64,000 nucleotides of DNA from Negativicoccus massiliensis (GTDB taxonomy: Bacteria > Bacillota > Negativicutes > Veillonellales > Negativicoccaceae), in contig LT700188.1 of NCBI GenBank assembly GCA_900155405.1, forward strand, positions 1,054,001 to 1,118,000. Reading direction: 5' to 3'. The position numbers and the translations under genes were made by a program. The notes below the pieces were generated by a model. The model was not told the DNA's origin, made no database searches, and was given only the letters and a program-made list of their open reading frames with translations. This document shows positions 20,386 to 30,006 of the stretch, one piece after another. Each line of letters opens with the position of its first letter. Positions within the stretch are counted from its first letter, which is position 1.

Positions 20386-21801
20386 TTATGCGTTGTCGTA
20401 ATCGTATAAGGGCAGACCGTCCTGGCGTTTTTCATCGTAATCGCGCAACACGGCTTTGATTTCCTTATGCAAGAGAATCAGCGCGATCAAGTTCGGGAGC
20501 ACCATGATGCCGTTGAACATATCACTCATATCCCAAACGAGTTCGACTTTGCCCAGCGTGCCGAGAACGATAAAGGCGAGCACGAGCACGCGATAAATAT
20601 TCAGGGCCGCGGACGAACGGAAAAGGAAACGGATATTCGACTCGCCGAAGTAGTACCAGCCGATGACCGTGGTGAAGGCGAAGAACGTGAGGCAAGTCGC
20701 GATGATCATCGGACCGATTTCGCCGAAGGCGGTGTGGAACGCTTCCTGCGTGACGAGCGCGCCGCTGAGTCCGAGCTGATCCGCGCCGGTCAAGAGAATA
20801 ATCAGCGCGGTCGCAGTGCAGACCAACATGGTATCGACAAAGACGCCGATGAACGCGGTAAAGCCTTGCAACACCGGATGCGCGACGAGCGCGGTCGCGT
20901 GCGCGTGCGGCGTAGAGCCCATGCCGGCTTCGTTCGAAAAGAGGCCGCGGGCGACGCCGAAGCGAATCGCTTCTTTCATCGTGACGCCCAAGAGACCGCC
21001 GCCGAGCGCCTGCGGATTGAATGCGCCCACAACGATGTGCTTAATCATCGGCAAGATTTCTCCCGCATAGAGGAAAAGAATCACCAGCGCGCACAAAATG
21101 TAAATCACCGCCATCAACGGCACGATGAGCTGCGCGAAATGCGCGATCCGATGAATGCCGCCGATGAAGATTAAGCCCGCGAAGATCGCGATCACGACGC
21201 CGATCATCAGCGGGTCCAGACCGAAAGCGTTGTTGACGGCGCCCGCGATCGAATTGGACTGCACCATGATGCCGATAAAGCCGAGCGCGATGATAATTGA
21301 AACGGCGAAGAAGCCGGCGAGAAATTTCGCCCAGCTTTTGCCGATGACAGGCGCTAAACCGCGCGAGATATAGAACGCGGGGCCGCCGATAAATTTACCC
21401 GCCACTTCCACGCGATATTTTTGCGCTAAAATCGCTTCGGCGAAGATCGTGCCCATGCCGAACAGCGCGGACACCCACATCCAAAAAATCGCGCCCGGAC
21501 CGCCCGCCATAATCGCGGTCGCGACACCGGCGACGTTGCCCGTGCCGACCTGCGCGGAAATCGCTACCGCCAGCGCCTGGAACGAGGAGATCGTACGACC
21601 GTCGCGATCGGTGTGCTGCTCTTTATACAAGCGACCGAATACCTGCCGCACGGCCGGACCGAAACGAATGAACTGCGGCGCGCCGAGATACACGGTAAAA
21701 AACAGACCGACGCCGACCAACGCGTACATCAGTACGGAACCCCACAAAATTTCGTTGACAGATGCCACGAATTGGGACCAAAGTCCCAAAAGCTCAGCCA
21801 T
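20386..21801 (-). CDS. Sodium:alanine symporter, AGCS family (copy 1)
   Basis: A 471-residue polytopic transporter of the alanine-or-glycine:cation symporter family. Family blocks seen are SSFQALAVAISAQVGTGNVAGV, GGPGAIFWMW, YRVEVAGKFIGGPAFYI and LFSNEAGMGSTPHAHA. The open frame runs back to 21873, but the ATG at 21801 has GGAGG upstream and gives MAELLGLWSQF, which matches the start of the paralogue at 28570-30006. A good leftward promoter lies at 21858-21886. The two copies agree at most positions by eye. It probably imports alanine for the alanine dehydrogenase encoded at 31.8 kb. Confidence 0.93.
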   Translation of the reverse strand: MAELLGLWSQFVASVNEILWGSVLMYALVGVGLFFTVYLGAPQFIRFGPAVRQVFGRLYKEQHTDRDGRTISSFQALAVAISAQVGTGNVAGVATAIMAGGPGAIFWMWVSALFGMGTIFAEAILAQKYRVEVAGKFIGGPAFYISRGLAPVIGKSWAKFLAGFFAVSIIIALGFIGIMVQSNSIAGAVNNAFGLDPLMIGVVIAIFAGLIFIGGIHRIAHFAQLIVPLMAVIYILCALVILFLYAGEILPMIKHIVVGAFNPQALGGGLLGVTMKEAIRFGVARGLFSNEAGMGSTPHAHATALVAHPVLQGFTAFIGVFVDTMLVCTATALIILLTGADQLGLSGALVTQEAFHTAFGEIGPMIIATCLTFFAFTTVIGWYYFGESNIRFLFRSSAALNIYRVLVLAFIVLGTLGKVELVWDMSDMFNGIMVLPNLIALILLHKEIKAVLRDYDEKRQDGLPLYDYDNA

Positions 21802-21857
21802 AATATCTCCTCCATAAAAACAATTGACCGTGTTAAAAACACAAATAAATTGGATTA

Positions 21858-21886
21858 AGTGTACCACGATCATTAAAAAATGGCAA
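21858..21886 (-). promoter_or_regulatory. Sigma-A promoter of AGCS copy 1
   Basis: Read on the minus strand: TTGCCA, 17-base spacer, TACACT. It ends about 57 bases before the start codon. Confidence 0.75.
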
Positions 21887-22065
21887 GGAGGAAATAATTT
21901 ATTTTACTAAATAATTATCGACAGTGTTTTTCATCCGACAGCATTCTTTTTTATTTCATATTCGCAAAACCCGCCTGTATGGAGCGGATCAAGACTAAGG
22001 TGTAAAATAATGGTATGATGTTATCGTTGAATATTTCATCTTTTAGTGAATCTGAGGAGCTAATC

Positions 22066-22275
22066 ATGGCGGTAACATACAGACGACTATTTCACTTATT
22101 AATAGATAAAGATATGAGCGTTTCAGACCTGCAGAAAAAAGCGGGATACAGTGCTAACATATCTACCAAATTAAAAAATGACAGTTACGTATCCTTAGAA
22201 ACCATAGAAAAAATTTGCCGCGCTTTAGGTTGTGACATCGAAGACATTGTAGAAATCAAGGAGAACCGGAAATGA
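22066..22275 (+). CDS. Small XRE-type HTH regulator of the RM locus
   Basis: A 69-residue DNA-binding protein that is almost only a Cro/C1-type helix-turn-helix: MSVSDLQKKAGYSANISTKL, then SLETIEKICRALGCDIEDI. The ATG at 22066 has GAGGAG upstream; the frame open to 22015 is longer only by chance. Its stop overlaps the start of the restriction-modification gene (ATGA), so it is coexpressed with it. Its size and position match controller (C) proteins of restriction-modification systems, but no C-box was identified. Confidence 0.85.
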   Translation: MAVTYRRLFHLLIDKDMSVSDLQKKAGYSANISTKLKNDSYVSLETIEKICRALGCDIEDIVEIKENRK

Positions 22276-25200: not shown

Positions 25201-25961
25201 TCTTGCCGGATTATTTAGTTCATGCGTTGCAAGTTGAAGGAGAATATGAACGATTTTCAAGAAATTACCGAGCATCCATACAAAAAGTGAGACAACTGGT
25301 TATTCAAGTGCCATCAATTGATGAACAAGAAAGAATTGTTTCAGAAATTGATAAAGTGGATTCTACAATTAAAGAACAAGATTCGATAATTAAAAAATAT
25401 GACGAAGATATCAAATCAAAATTTGCCGAGATGTTTGCGGATTACAGTGCAAAAAAACTTATAGGCGATATAGATGAAATAATTATTTCAAAAGGAACAA
25501 CAATTACAGCGTCACAGACCATTAAAGGCGATATTCCCGTAGTTGCGGCAGGAATTAAACCCGCATACTATCACAATGAAAGCAATTGGCCTGGGAATGT
25601 AATTACGGTTAGTGCTTCAGGAGCAAATGCAGGGTATATCAATTATTGGGATAGACCAATATTTGCGAGTGACTGTAACGTTATAGAATCTACTGATGCA
25701 AATAAAGTCAATATAGTATTTTTGTTCTACGCATTATTGCAAAATCAACAAAAGTTATTTGAATCACAAAAAGGTAATGCACAACCTCATGTCTATGCAG
25801 ATGATATCAAAAGTATATCTATACCTTTTCCAGCAATATTAATGCAGAATCAGTTTGCATCTTATGTAGAAGAAATCGACAAATTGAAATTTGAAGCTAG
25901 CCAAAGAAAGGAAAAAGCCGAAACCGAAAAAGAAAACTTAATAGAGAAATATTTCAGATAA
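22272..25961 (+). CDS. Fused restriction nuclease-methyltransferase-specificity protein (AloI-like Type IIB/IIG)
   Basis: A 1229-residue single-chain RM enzyme. Residues 1-200 form an HsdR_N-type PD-(D/E)xK nuclease with D104, E119-C-K121 and the following Q140-xxx-Y144. Residues 390-760 form a gamma-type N6-adenine methyltransferase with QFFTPVPITR, DYACGAGHF (459-467, AdoMet) and NPPY (549-552). Residues 885-1050 and 1050-1229 are two HsdS-like target-recognition halves. Each ends in a coiled helix (PSIDEQERIVSEIDK and FASYVEEIDKLKF). This R-M-S-S order is that of AloI-type enzymes, which need no HsdR translocase; no helicase domain is present. The gene is A+T-rich compared with the flanks. 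The second recognition half is bounded by repeats that recur downstream of the recombinase. Confidence 0.9.
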   Translation: MITKSNLKEVLPLIGYKEQENYFTKQYPEFDCHISVDFANEKINYPEDKGLRVHKRTTCNFSDPENFVVLECVTRLMDKGYRPEHIEIEKTWSLGHDQKSGRADILVKESTGKTLFIIECKTYGREYDKALKDTINDGAQLFSYWQQEKYCKWLVLYASTLDGNSIDYKTCSINCSDDKNLIELAKKDASILLYKNAYTVPELYNVWKETYERRLLGDILFRDDSIAYQVGVKPLRKKDLIDFTGKDRVVNKFEEILRHNNVSDKENAFNRLIALFICKLVDEIQKTDTDVVDFQYKIGTDTYESLQDRLQRLHKEGMEKFMKEDIFYIPEDYAQKTILQYTGDNRKELIKELDKTFKILKFYTNNDFAFKDVHNEELFLQNGKILVEVVKLFENYRIIGSNNLQMLGDLFEQLLNKGFKQNEGQFFTPVPITRFIWDSLPLEKIVRQDEKTNTPKIIDYACGAGHFLTEGFEAINDIFMWIDPDAKVDFSWARDNIYGIEKDYRLARVSKISLFMHGAGDGNIIFGDGLENYKEKGIVPETFDVLVANPPYSVSAFKPHLNLKNNDFNVLDKVSNNGSEIETLFVERISQLLKPKAVAAVILPSSILNKENESFIAARESVLENFAIKAIVSLSDKTFGATGTNTVILFLEKYDEPPKRIDLIKDTVDAILSGQSLEHWEDEIVFAEYLKTIGLTKEDYYDFVLKKINYTDYTSKYFKNYVTAFLNLSATKAKKKQRMFSKLTKDEQDTILNKMFYDYVLEVEREKIKYFALIYKNRTLIANAPADNKAQEAFLGYKWSNRKGQEGIQITSPGGKLYDETNRQSGNTLASLIRRMFNSEEYSIEGLEEYYYYLNTKDMLDFKSVNFNKGIKTRKTRILKDDPNLTTYYLSDKKVFDLSIGDRVLNDELVEDGEVPVYSANVFEEFGRINKNNITDFSKPSILWGIDGDWMVNYLPANKEFYPTDHCGVLRLKTDRILPDYLVHALQVEGEYERFSRNYRASIQKVRQLVIQVPSIDEQERIVSEIDKVDSTIKEQDSIIKKYDEDIKSKFAEMFADYSAKKLIGDIDEIIISKGTTITASQTIKGDIPVVAAGIKPAYYHNESNWPGNVITVSASGANAGYINYWDRPIFASDCNVIESTDANKVNIVFLFYALLQNQQKLFESQKGNAQPHVYADDIKSISIPFPAILMQNQFASYVEEIDKLKFEASQRKEKAETEKENLIEKYFR
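25410..25437 (+). repeat. Direct repeat A, copy 1 (start of expressed TRD2)
   Basis: 28 bases encoding IKSKFAEMF. They match 26996-27023 with a single mismatch (C versus T at the 17th base). This is the hinge between the two recognition halves of the RM enzyme. Confidence 0.93.
25854..25893 (+). repeat. Direct repeat B, copy 1 (end of expressed TRD2)
   Basis: 40 bases encoding the helix ASYVEEIDKLKF. They match 27494-27533 with a single mismatch. Between repeats A and B lie 416 bases that encode the expressed second target-recognition domain. Confidence 0.93.
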
Positions 25962-26011
25962 AATAAGCCCGCCAATCTTCTATCTGTATACTGATTTTCA
26001 AGGAGGAACGT

Positions 26012-26995
26012 ATGAAAAATTCAGCTATTACAGAAATCATGCAAGAGATGGCGGGCTATTTAAATAATCAGCAACTCGAAAAGCTTGAAAAAACCTTACA
26101 TCACACTTTGTGGAACAAAGAAATTGTCGAGAAGGATGATTTTCAAGCAAGTGATGATACGGATTATTTAGCGGAATTTTTGTCCGCGAAAAAAGTGGAA
26201 GGTTGCTCGGAAAGGACACTTTCCTATTATCAAAGCACTTTACAAAAGATGTTGCATATTTTGAATAAGTCGGTCAAACAAATTGAAACGGGCGATTTAC
26301 GTTCGTATATCGCGTCCTATTCCGATCATCAAAAGGTAAGCAAGACTACTCTGGATAATATAAGGCGGATCATTTCCAGCTTTTTTGCTTGGCTTGAAGA
26401 AGAAAACCACATTATTAAAAGTCCGGCGAGACGTATTCATAAAATCCGAACAGGAAGCACGGTAAAATCCGTTTACACAGATGAAGAATTGGAGATGCTG
26501 CGAGACTCTTGTGACGATATAAGAGACGTGGCGATTATCGATTTTCTCGCTTCCACCGGAGTTCGCATAGGTGAGCTGGTGAAAATAAATATTTCCGATA
26601 TAGATTTTGATAAAAGAGAATGCATCGTTTTAGGCAAAGGAAATAAAGAGAGGATCGTTTATTTTGACGCAAGGAGTAAAATTCATGTGTTAGAGTATCT
26701 TGCTAACAGAAGGGATGACAACCAAGCGCTTTTTGTGTCTTTAAATAAACCTCACAAACGACTGAAAATTTCAGGAATTGAAATCAGGCTCAGAAATTTA
26801 GGTAAAAAACTCAATATTGAAAGAGTCCATCCCCACAAGTTCAGGAGAACGTTAGCCACAAACGCGATTGATAAGGGAATGCCCATAGAGCAAGTCCAAC
26901 TCTTACTGGGACACACTAAAATAGATACCACTTTGCACTATGCGATGGTTAATCAAAACAATGTAAAACAATCCCATAGAAAATACATAGGCTGA
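26012..26995 (+). CDS. Tyrosine recombinase (XerC/D-like integrase)
   Basis: A 327-residue site-specific recombinase. The N-terminal SAM-like DNA-binding domain covers about 50-135. The catalytic domain carries the full residue set: R185 in TGVRIGEL, K209 in GKGNKER, H275-xx-R278 in HPHKFRRT, H301 in LLGHTKIDTT and Y310. It is therefore likely active. The start follows AAGGAGG. Its stop codon directly abuts repeat A copy 2, so it sits between the expressed and the spare recognition cassette. Similar recombinases lie beside phase-variable Type I hsdS genes. It is A+T-rich like the RM gene. Confidence 0.92.
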   Translation: MKNSAITEIMQEMAGYLNNQQLEKLEKTLHHTLWNKEIVEKDDFQASDDTDYLAEFLSAKKVEGCSERTLSYYQSTLQKMLHILNKSVKQIETGDLRSYIASYSDHQKVSKTTLDNIRRIISSFFAWLEEENHIIKSPARRIHKIRTGSTVKSVYTDEELEMLRDSCDDIRDVAIIDFLASTGVRIGELVKINISDIDFDKRECIVLGKGNKERIVYFDARSKIHVLEYLANRRDDNQALFVSLNKPHKRLKISGIEIRLRNLGKKLNIERVHPHKFRRTLATNAIDKGMPIEQVQLLLGHTKIDTTLHYAMVNQNNVKQSHRKYIG

Positions 26996-27023
26996 ATCAA
27001 ATCAAAATTTGTCGAGATGTTTG
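26996..27023 (+). repeat. Direct repeat A, copy 2 (start of silent TRD cassette)
   Basis: Same 28-base element as 25410-25437 with one mismatch. It begins on the base after the recombinase stop codon and is in frame with the spare cassette. Confidence 0.93.
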
Positions 27024-27493
27024 GGGGCAAAAATTTCAAATTAAAAAAATTGTCTGATCTATTCTCATTTCAATTGGGGAAAACGCCTTCAAGATATAAT
27101 AACGAGTATTGGAATAAAAAAGGACATAAGTGGATTTCGGTTGCTGATATGGGGAATTATCATAGATTTACAGGAGATACTTCTGAATTTATAACTGACA
27201 AAGCTATCATCGACACCGGAATAAAACCAGTACCGGCTGGTACTGTTATTATGAGTTTCAAATTAACTATTGGGAGAACAGCCATAACCGCAGAAAATAT
27301 ATTTACAAATGAAGCGATAATCGCCTTTTTGAACAAGGGCGGCGACTACGTTAATAATGATTATTTGCGATTATGCTTATCTCTGCACGATTGGTCTACT
27401 GGAGAAATGAACGCCGTTAAGGGGGCTACCCTTAATCAATCGTCTATAGGAAACGAGACAATAAAAATTCCGCCTAAAGACTTGCAAGACGAA

Positions 27494-27533
27494 TTTGCAT
27501 CGTATGTAGAAGAAATCGACAAATTGAAATTTG
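27494..27533 (+). repeat. Direct repeat B, copy 2 (end of silent TRD cassette)
   Basis: Same 40-base element as 25854-25893 with one mismatch (G for T at 27502). All similarity to the expressed gene ends here. Confidence 0.93.
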
Positions 27534-27630
27534 CCTTTTACGGGAAAAACACGCCTGCAAAAACGCGGCGCGGATGACCGACAGCTTTTTGCAAAGTCTT
27601 TTTTGCGCACTCGGTACATGAAAATAAAAT

Positions 27631-28542: not shown

Positions 28543-28571
28543 AAAAAACGCCCCGTACGGGGCGTTTTTTT
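28543..28571. terminator. Bidirectional intrinsic terminator
   Basis: AAAAAACGCCCC-GTAC-GGGGCGTTTTTT, a perfect stem between the convergent FNT (+) and AGCS copy 2 (-) genes. Confidence 0.9.
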
Positions 28572-30006
28572 ATGCGACGCTGTCATAATCGTAGAGAGGG
28601 ATGCCGTCCTGCCGTTTTTTATCGTAATCGCGCAAGATGCCTTTGACTTCTTTATGCAGGATGATGAGAGCAATTAAGTTCGGAAGGACCATAATGCCGT
28701 TGAACATGTCAATCATGCTCCAGATCAGGTCGACCGTGCCGAGCGTGCCGAGCACGATGAAGACCAGGACCAGCGCCCGATAGGTGTAGAGAACGGCGTT
28801 TGATTTAAATAAATAGCGGACGTTCGATTCGCCGAAATAATACCAACTGATGACGGTCGTAAAGGCGAAGAACGTGAGGCAGATCGCGATGATTTTCGGT
28901 CCGATGGCGCCGAACGCGATATGAAATGCTTCTTGCGTGACCATCGCGCCGTCTAAACCGAGCTGATCCGCGCCCGTAAGTAAAATAATTAAAGCGGTCG
29001 AGGTGCACACCAGTATGGTGTCCACGAAGACGCCGATGAATGCGGTGAAGCCTTGCAGCACCGGGTGAGCGACCAGCGCCGTCGCGTGCGCGTGCGGCGT
29101 CGTGCCCATGCCGGCTTCGTTCGAAAAGAGGCCGCGGGCGACACCAAAGCGAACGGCTTCTTTCATGGTGACGCCGAGTAAACCGCCGCCCAATGCCTGC
29201 GGATTAAACGCGCCGATGACGATGTGTTGAATCATCGGCAGAATGTGCTCGGCAAACAGGAACAGGATGACGAGTGCGCAGAGAATGTACACTGCCGCCA
29301 TTATCGGTACGATCAGTTGCGCGAAACGCGCGATCCGATGAATGCCGCCGATGAAAATCGCGCCCGCGAATAGAGCGATGAGCAGGCCGCACACGACCGG
29401 CGAAATACCGAACGCGTTGTTCACGGCGGTGGCAATCGAGTTCGACTGCGCCATGCTGCCGATAAAGCCGACGGAGATAATAACAATGACCGCGAAGATA
29501 CCGGCGAATATTTTGGCGTTTGTTCGGCCGATGTAGCTTTGCAGACCGCGCGAGATGTAAAATGCCGGACCGCCGATAAATTTGCCGGCGACTTCCACGC
29601 GATACTTTTGCGCTAAGACAGCTTCGGCGAAAATGGTGCTCATGCCGAAGAGCGCCGATATCCACATCCAGAAAATGGCGCCGGGGCCGCCTGCCATAAT
29701 GGCGGTCGCTACGCCCGCGACGTTACCGGTGCCGACTTGCGCGGAAATCGCGACGGCCAGCGCTTGGAACGAAGAGATCGATTTTCCGTCGCGATCGGTA
29801 TGTTGATATTTATACAACTTACCGAAGACCTGACGCACCGCCGGCCCGAAACGGATAAATTGCGGCGCGCCGAGATACATCGTAAAAAATAATCCCACGG
29901 CCACCAGACCGTACATGAGAACGGAACCCCACAGCACCTCGTTGACGGAATCAACGAATTGGGACCAATACATGAGAAGATCGGATAAAAAGCTCTCTGT
30001 CGTCAT
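28570..30006 (-). CDS. Sodium:alanine symporter, AGCS family (copy 2)
   Basis: A 478-residue transporter, a close paralogue of the gene at 20386-21801. Long identical blocks include SSFQALAVAISAQVGTGNVA, AQKYRVEVAGKFIGGPAFYI and GGGLLGVTMKEA. It has the same C-terminal YDYDS/YDYDN ending. Differences cluster in the loops and near residues 175-215. The start ATG at 30006 follows AGGGAGA. The leftward promoter is at 30049-30077. The pair probably arose by duplication, and the RM island and the FNT gene now lie between the copies. Confidence 0.93.
   Translation of the reverse strand: MTTESFLSDLLMYWSQFVDSVNEVLWGSVLMYGLVAVGLFFTMYLGAPQFIRFGPAVRQVFGKLYKYQHTDRDGKSISSFQALAVAISAQVGTGNVAGVATAIMAGGPGAIFWMWISALFGMSTIFAEAVLAQKYRVEVAGKFIGGPAFYISRGLQSYIGRTNAKIFAGIFAVIVIISVGFIGSMAQSNSIATAVNNAFGISPVVCGLLIALFAGAIFIGGIHRIARFAQLIVPIMAAVYILCALVILFLFAEHILPMIQHIVIGAFNPQALGGGLLGVTMKEAVRFGVARGLFSNEAGMGTTPHAHATALVAHPVLQGFTAFIGVFVDTILVCTSTALIILLTGADQLGLDGAMVTQEAFHIAFGAIGPKIIAICLTFFAFTTVISWYYFGESNVRYLFKSNAVLYTYRALVLVFIVLGTLGTVDLIWSMIDMFNGIMVLPNLIALIILHKEVKGILRDYDKKRQDGIPLYDYDSVA

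Follow-up and report, generated by a model that had tools for sequence, protein, structure and literature searches.

A candidate recombinase-driven switch of target recognition in a single-chain Type IIG restriction enzyme of Negativicoccus massiliensis

Switching of DNA recognition by a recombinase has been documented for Type I restriction-modification systems, in which one specificity (S) subunit serves both methylation and cleavage. In the tvr locus (SpnIV) of Streptococcus pneumoniae, excision and reintegration have been demonstrated experimentally; circular forms were detected by polymerase chain reaction and shuffling was reduced in tvrR deletants (Kwun et al. 2018, PMC6265443). The same paper states that phase variation of Type II systems is usually on/off, since both activities must change together, and that specificity switching is exceptional; it also cites a frameshifting Type IIG enzyme of Helicobacter pylori (PMC6265443). 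Here we describe a locus in a 64,000-nucleotide stretch of the Negativicoccus massiliensis genome (contig LT700188.1, hereafter the window), in which the gene of a XerA-like tyrosine recombinase lies next to a fused Type IIG restriction-methyltransferase and a silent target recognition domain (TRD). The locus is probably a specificity switch of this one-polypeptide enzyme, with the recombinase acting at four palindromes and TRDs exchanged by excision and reintegration (Table 1). A phase-variable Type IIG enzyme has reportedly also been studied in Campylobacter. The Campylobacter and H. pylori enzymes resemble ours in being single chains whose activity or target varies, but they are reportedly on/off or frameshifting, with no recombinase-driven TRD exchange.

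Table 1 Features of the Type IIG locus in the window.
Feature	Position	Strand	Evidence or remark
Low-GC (guanine-plus-cytosine) block (regulator, Type IIG gene, recombinase, silent TRD)	21960 to about 27533-27539	+	GC content; left end approximate
Small Cro/C1-type helix-turn-helix regulator	22015..22275	+	HTH_26 8.1e-19; overlaps start of enzyme gene
Fused Type IIG restriction-methyltransferase, two TRDs, 1229 residues	22272..25961	+	N6_Mtase, Methylase_S x2, PADLOC Type IIG
Repeat A1	25410..25437	+	Palindrome 25412-25425, palindrome core CAAA
TRD2a core, expressed position	25438..25853	+	416 bp
Repeat B1	25854..25893	+	Palindrome 25880-25893, palindrome core TGAA
Constant C-terminal tail of enzyme, after B site	25894..25961	+	Retained with either TRD in the modelled swap
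XerA-like tyrosine recombinase, 327 residues	26012..26995	+	NF040815
Repeat A2	26996..27023	+	Palindrome 26998-27011, core CAAA; immediately after recombinase stop codon
Silent TRD2b open frame	26996..27577	+	Methylase_S 5.2e-14; in register with A1, without tail; core 27024-27493, 470 bp
Repeat B2	27494..27533	+	Palindrome 27520-27533, core TGAA; close to right edge of block

As in tvr, the recombinase gene sits between the expressed TRD (enzyme end at 25961) and the silent TRD (start at 26996), and the repeats at the TRD boundaries, here A and B, all have the same orientation. The tvr locus is a Type I system with separate hsdM, hsdS and hsdR genes, tvrAT toxin-antitoxin-like genes and an attenuator, and its repeat types share an 11-bp core. 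In contrast, our locus encodes a single Type IIG protein whose stop lies only 50 nt ahead of the recombinase start, with no tvrAT genes, and has repeat types that share their arms and differ in their cores (CAAA and TGAA). By analogy it appears to work like tvr/SpnIV, but the strict definition of a tvr locus (Type I, with tvrAT) does not cover it. The cod/ivr locus (SpnD39III/Spn556II, PsrA) also has a tyrosine recombinase beside silent hsdS parts and a short (15 bp) recognition repeat, but it is a Type I locus with inverted repeats and DNA inversion (PMC4948785, PMC7096588), whereas here the repeats are direct and there is no inverted core pair. The Type I loci with duplicated hsdS in REBASE likewise hold silent TRDs that can be exchanged via repeats; that survey sought inverted repeats of Type I hsdS, so direct-repeat loci like this one fall outside it (Atack et al. 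2020, PMC7394358). Several Type I loci of our own survey (L015, L019, L052, L061, L067, L079) have the recombinase family, the palindrome and direct cassettes in common with the window, but a separate S subunit. In the open-access literature, mostly judged by title and the start of the abstract, we found neither recombinase-driven TRD exchange in a Type IIG enzyme nor a rule linking palindrome cores to the outcome. The mechanism is known from tvr; new here would be the Type IIG enzyme as its target and the two different site cores.

As is characteristic of Type IIG, a single polypeptide combines the endonuclease with the adenine methylase and the recognition domains. Its residues 1-874 match PADLOC PDLC03624 (Type IIG) at 1.7e-291, and its best sequence match among solved structures is RM.BsaXI, covering the methylase part. 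The N-terminal region is nuclease-like with a score below the cut-off (HSDR_N_2, 22.9 against 25). Motifs ECK and NPPY are present, and we presume for them the roles generally given to such motifs. The recombinase scores 249.7 bits against NF040815 (curated cut-off 220). Residues R185, K209, H275, R278, H301 and Y310, read off motif positions, are those that we take to be expected of an active tyrosine recombinase, and the XerA alignment agrees.

A sequence-only reading of this stretch had reported two pairs of near-perfect direct repeats bounding interchangeable recognition cores, and its coordinates and lengths for the repeats are exact. The copies of A (28 bp) and of B (40 bp) each differ by a single mismatch and lie in direct orientation; in 14 kb, chance alone would yield about 1e-7 pairs as long as A (28 bp) and with no more than one mismatch (analytic, uniform bases). 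That reading placed mismatches at third codon positions, which is correct for B (25862, T vs G, codon position 3, synonymous Ser) and wrong for A (25426, C vs T, codon position 2, Ala/Val). The two TRD cores are unrelated, as it had claimed: their DNA matches are chance 9-mers at most, and BLASTP of the two encoded cores against each other returned nothing at E<10.

Repeat A encodes IKSKFAEMF and repeat B DKLKFE, which carry the S-protein motifs KSKFxEMF and DKLKF. In a predicted structure of the S region, A corresponds to residues 160-165 within a helix at 129-168 and B to residues 316-321 within a helix at 302-341, both with local predicted local distance difference test (pLDDT) values of 90-93. 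The prediction as a whole has a mean pLDDT of 68.2 from 14 sequences, and parts of the TRD between A and B are poorly predicted. This model agrees with the earlier suggestion that the repeats encode conserved HsdS helices, and from the positions of A and B in it a cassette would consist of the TRD plus one end of each long helix. The same motifs and helices also favor an account in which the repeats are simply conserved helices and the silent TRD is a dead remnant of gene duplication that never switches, as does the single strain at hand, which comes without a swapped sibling. Conversely, the silent frame is open and in register, and the synonymous stretch of B is nearly identical in DNA. The palindrome and the related loci also bear on this account.

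Of 61 genomes of the order, 8 carry a related recombinase, the present one among them; such recombinases also turned up at 76 loci in named genomes, mostly 54-71% identical. The 75 loci analyzed are the window, seven from the order and 67 of the 76; left out were nine weak or partial matches (L070, L073, L078, L080, L082-L086). Four of the 75 with short matches were excluded from the recombinase tree and the orientation labels, and the tree positions of L069 (out of frame) and L068 (a methanogen locus with stops in the stretch used) are meaningless. A Type IIG body adjoins this recombinase at only three of the 75 loci, those of the window and of genomes G035 and G037, and their three recombinases form one clade (support 99/98). 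Among 398 genomes of the phylum, a search at 1e-100 found the Type IIG body in the present genome only; G035 and G037 were picked up by the search of the order.

Each of the four repeats includes a 14-bp palindrome, CAAAT-N4-ATTTG, with core CAAA in the A copies and TGAA in the B copies. It occurs four times in the window, once per TRD boundary, and nine times in the 1.36-Mb genome against two for a reversed-pattern control. On the outer sides, identity between the A copies stops 2 bp from the palindrome and identity between the B copies stops at its last base, while both mismatches lie on its inner side. Across the 75 loci, 208 strict palindromes lie within 2.5 kb of a related recombinase (405,891 bp), against an expectation of 13.8 (mean of ten Markov simulations); regions farther away hold 22 in 477,884 bp. 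Where the palindrome is coding, one frame gives KSKF, KARF or KLKF and another INDNL or INRNL, at times from the opposite strand, and L044, L051, L061 and L064 each have one site just past the S reading frame. Protein constraint alone is therefore insufficient, because one DNA element is kept in different frames and outside S frames.

A control on the encoded motif points the same way: near a recombinase, 25 of 28 instances of the KSRFxEMF-type motif form a palindrome, against 2 of 6 at those control loci (13 of 22) whose retrieved flanks hold no recombinase (Fisher P=0.0096). This control is supporting only, as it is small and counts related loci as independent. With a palindrome that does not depend on frame, and with relatives that carry TRDs in exchanged slots (see below), the dead-remnant account is in our judgment very unlikely. 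Cores are also paired within loci. When the arms are slightly relaxed, 259 sites lie near a recombinase, and for 200 of them the core or its reverse complement recurs at a second site in the locus; shuffling cores among loci gives 58 on average and 77 at most.

In the mechanism we propose, the XerA-like recombinase would act on the four 14-bp sites (CAAAT/ATTTG arms, 4-bp core). Direct recombination of A1 with A2 would cut out a 1586-bp circle carrying TRD2a, the enzyme tail and the recombinase gene, and recombination between the B sites would put the circle back, such that TRD2b is expressed and TRD2a stored. The same outcome would follow from the reverse order, in which a circle of 1640 bp leaves through the B sites and re-enters through A. 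Because the A and B cores differ, A with B pairing should be prevented, which would keep the exchange exact. Modeled excision at A1 and A2 followed by reintegration at B yields a 1247-residue enzyme that carries TRD2b and ends in the constant tail; the recombinase stays intact, TRD2a becomes silent, and total length and frame are kept. Excision alone yields a 1239-residue enzyme with a short foreign tail, and the recombinase is lost. Methylation and cleavage would take on a changed target sequence together, because both rely on the same TRDs.

Evidence that cassettes move comes from relatives. L087 (G035, where the enzyme gene is split over two contigs) and L088 (G037) carry the same Type IIG system, with 98-99% identity in the enzyme and recombinase sequence surrounding the TRD, yet their expressed TRDs differ. 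The expressed TRD of L087 matches the silent TRD of L088 at 99.2% over 505 nt, and the alignment drops at palindromes on both sides. Among Type I loci, the expressed TRD of L067 matches the silent TRD of L019 (98.6% over 563 nt, edges at palindromes) and that of L051 the silent TRD of L061 (96.3% over 728 nt); TRDs of L051 and L064 match in both directions at 77-80%. Exchanged expressed and silent slots are thus seen in three clades, with edges at palindromes in two pairs, which supports the earlier reading that the cores are interchangeable. Its further claim that the repeats reflect DNA exchange beyond protein constraint is supported by these slots, together with a palindrome that is kept across frames. 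The other two TRDs of L087 and L088 have no listed match, which suggests that cassettes are also gained from elsewhere.

That reading had taken generic conversion as the route. Exchange itself stands, but for the route site-specific recombination fits better, with a recombinase between the copies and outer ends at most 2 bp from the palindrome. If the cassettes were instead exchanged by general homologous recombination, or by slippage between these short (28- and 40-bp) repeats, the recombinase would be incidental or minor. The near-identity of the repeat copies is what this alternative would predict, and in tvr a recombinase-independent route works at longer (~70 bp) repeats, while the short repeats there required the recombinase for efficient excision (PMC6265443). 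GTC/GCC beside A is the same in both copies within L087 and within L088 and differs between the two, so exchanged tracts can extend beyond the palindrome. Against homologous recombination stand the sharp outer edges of identity and the recurrence of the palindromes near this recombinase family in changing coding sense. A length of 28 bp is also short for homologous recombination. We therefore consider this alternative unlikely as the main route.

Several points weigh against the switch as proposed. The species is represented by one genome, in one state; its silent TRD could be nothing more than an inert leftover here, and homologous recombination could yield the same products. Between L087 and L088 there is no clean two-way swap, in that the silent TRD of L087 has no listed match to the expressed TRD of L088. 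Paired cores could also come from duplicated hsdS halves. The earlier reading had further predicted low synonymous divergence within the repeats. Across 12 loci, synonymous-codon differences in the repeats number 5 of 83 codons within loci and 222 of 1272 between them, but once each clade is represented by a single locus (9 in all) homogenization is not significant (permutation P=0.077), so the pattern is suggestive and we do not use it as proof. Within-locus exchange predicts likeness of the copies inside one genome, not lower divergence between genomes.

The shared palindromic arms of A and B also raise the possibility that A pairs with B and inverts the cassettes, as in inverting Type I loci; S domains are oppositely oriented in 27 of the 71 classified related loci. 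This is hardly credible for the window. CAAA and TGAA are different cores, neither being the reverse complement of the other, and a TRD flipped in place would merely break the gene. Loci with inverted S domains hold one core in both orientations (27/27), and the window has no inverted core. We counted cores in the 62 loci with at least two S domains, 27 oppositely oriented and 35 direct. One paired core was found in 26 of the 27 inverted loci, and two or more in the remaining one. The direct loci had at least two paired cores in 17 cases, one in 13 and none in 5, with no inverted core pair in 31; three of the four with such a pair (L024, L033, L046) are short contigs. At least two paired cores thus occur in 17/30 direct loci (the 5 without a paired core left out) vs 1/27 inverted loci (P=1e-5), and an inverted core pair in 4/35 vs 27/27 (P=2e-13). 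Both P-values overstate the association, because an inverted cassette practically by definition brings inverted sites with it, and the counts include relatives that are not independent of one another.

Other loci of the family vary in layout. In L035, L049 and their Bacteroidota relatives, the recombinase is followed by same-direction S domains and two alternating cores in a tandem direct layout (GAGA/GACA, in canonical form, in L035). In L087 and L088, an extra palindrome with core CCAA lies downstream of the recombinase stop and ahead of the A2 site; behind it comes an orphan copy of an S-protein tail, perhaps a relic of an earlier exchange. L067 has an exact 532-nt direct repeat downstream of the recombinase that holds a silent TRD, and the stored cassette seems to be tandemly duplicated. 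L076 and L077 have a more distant recombinase (40% identical), and no S domains were detected there; in L076 an exact direct repeat of 540 nt and shorter inverted repeats surround the recombinase, perhaps another kind of switch. The same recombinase family occurs on plasmids of lactic acid bacteria (records H2-H13) and in Methanosphaera, often beside restriction subunit S genes.

In the window, the locus forms a block of 34-41% GC within surroundings of 50-61%. In the sister species G032 the block is missing and its flanks are contiguous (95.2% and 93.7% identical), which puts the right edge just beyond the B2 palindrome. Judging from this comparison, the block was probably acquired as one unit or lost in the sister species. 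Two minus-strand paralogous genes flank the island (20386-21873 and 28570-30006; 75-83% identical in the stretches compared) and presumably encode alanine/sodium symporters. No transfer RNA genes or Rfam families were found in the window. Promoter-like sites numbered 24 against 16.9 in shuffles and were not used as evidence.

The core counts suggest that the 4-bp core may decide whether a locus inverts or swaps. Since the association is partly geometric and counts relatives separately, we offer it as a hypothesis, and a tentative one to which we give somewhat less than even credence. Here the core would serve as an address: one core in both orientations would lead to inversion, and several direct cores to an excision and reintegration swap, which in this locus would set Type IIG specificity and switch methylation and cleavage in one step. 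Such a reading would extend to a recombinase family whose members in this survey come mainly from Bacillota, Bacteroidota and Actinomycetota, and the swap would amount to a natural recombinase-mediated cassette exchange. In a fused Type IIG enzyme, the exchange of a TRD satisfies by construction the requirement that both activities change together. Surveys restricted to inverted repeats overlook direct-repeat switches. If the address rule is true, inversion or swap, and the pairing partners, would be readable from sequence, and the sites would be orthogonal addresses for one recombinase.

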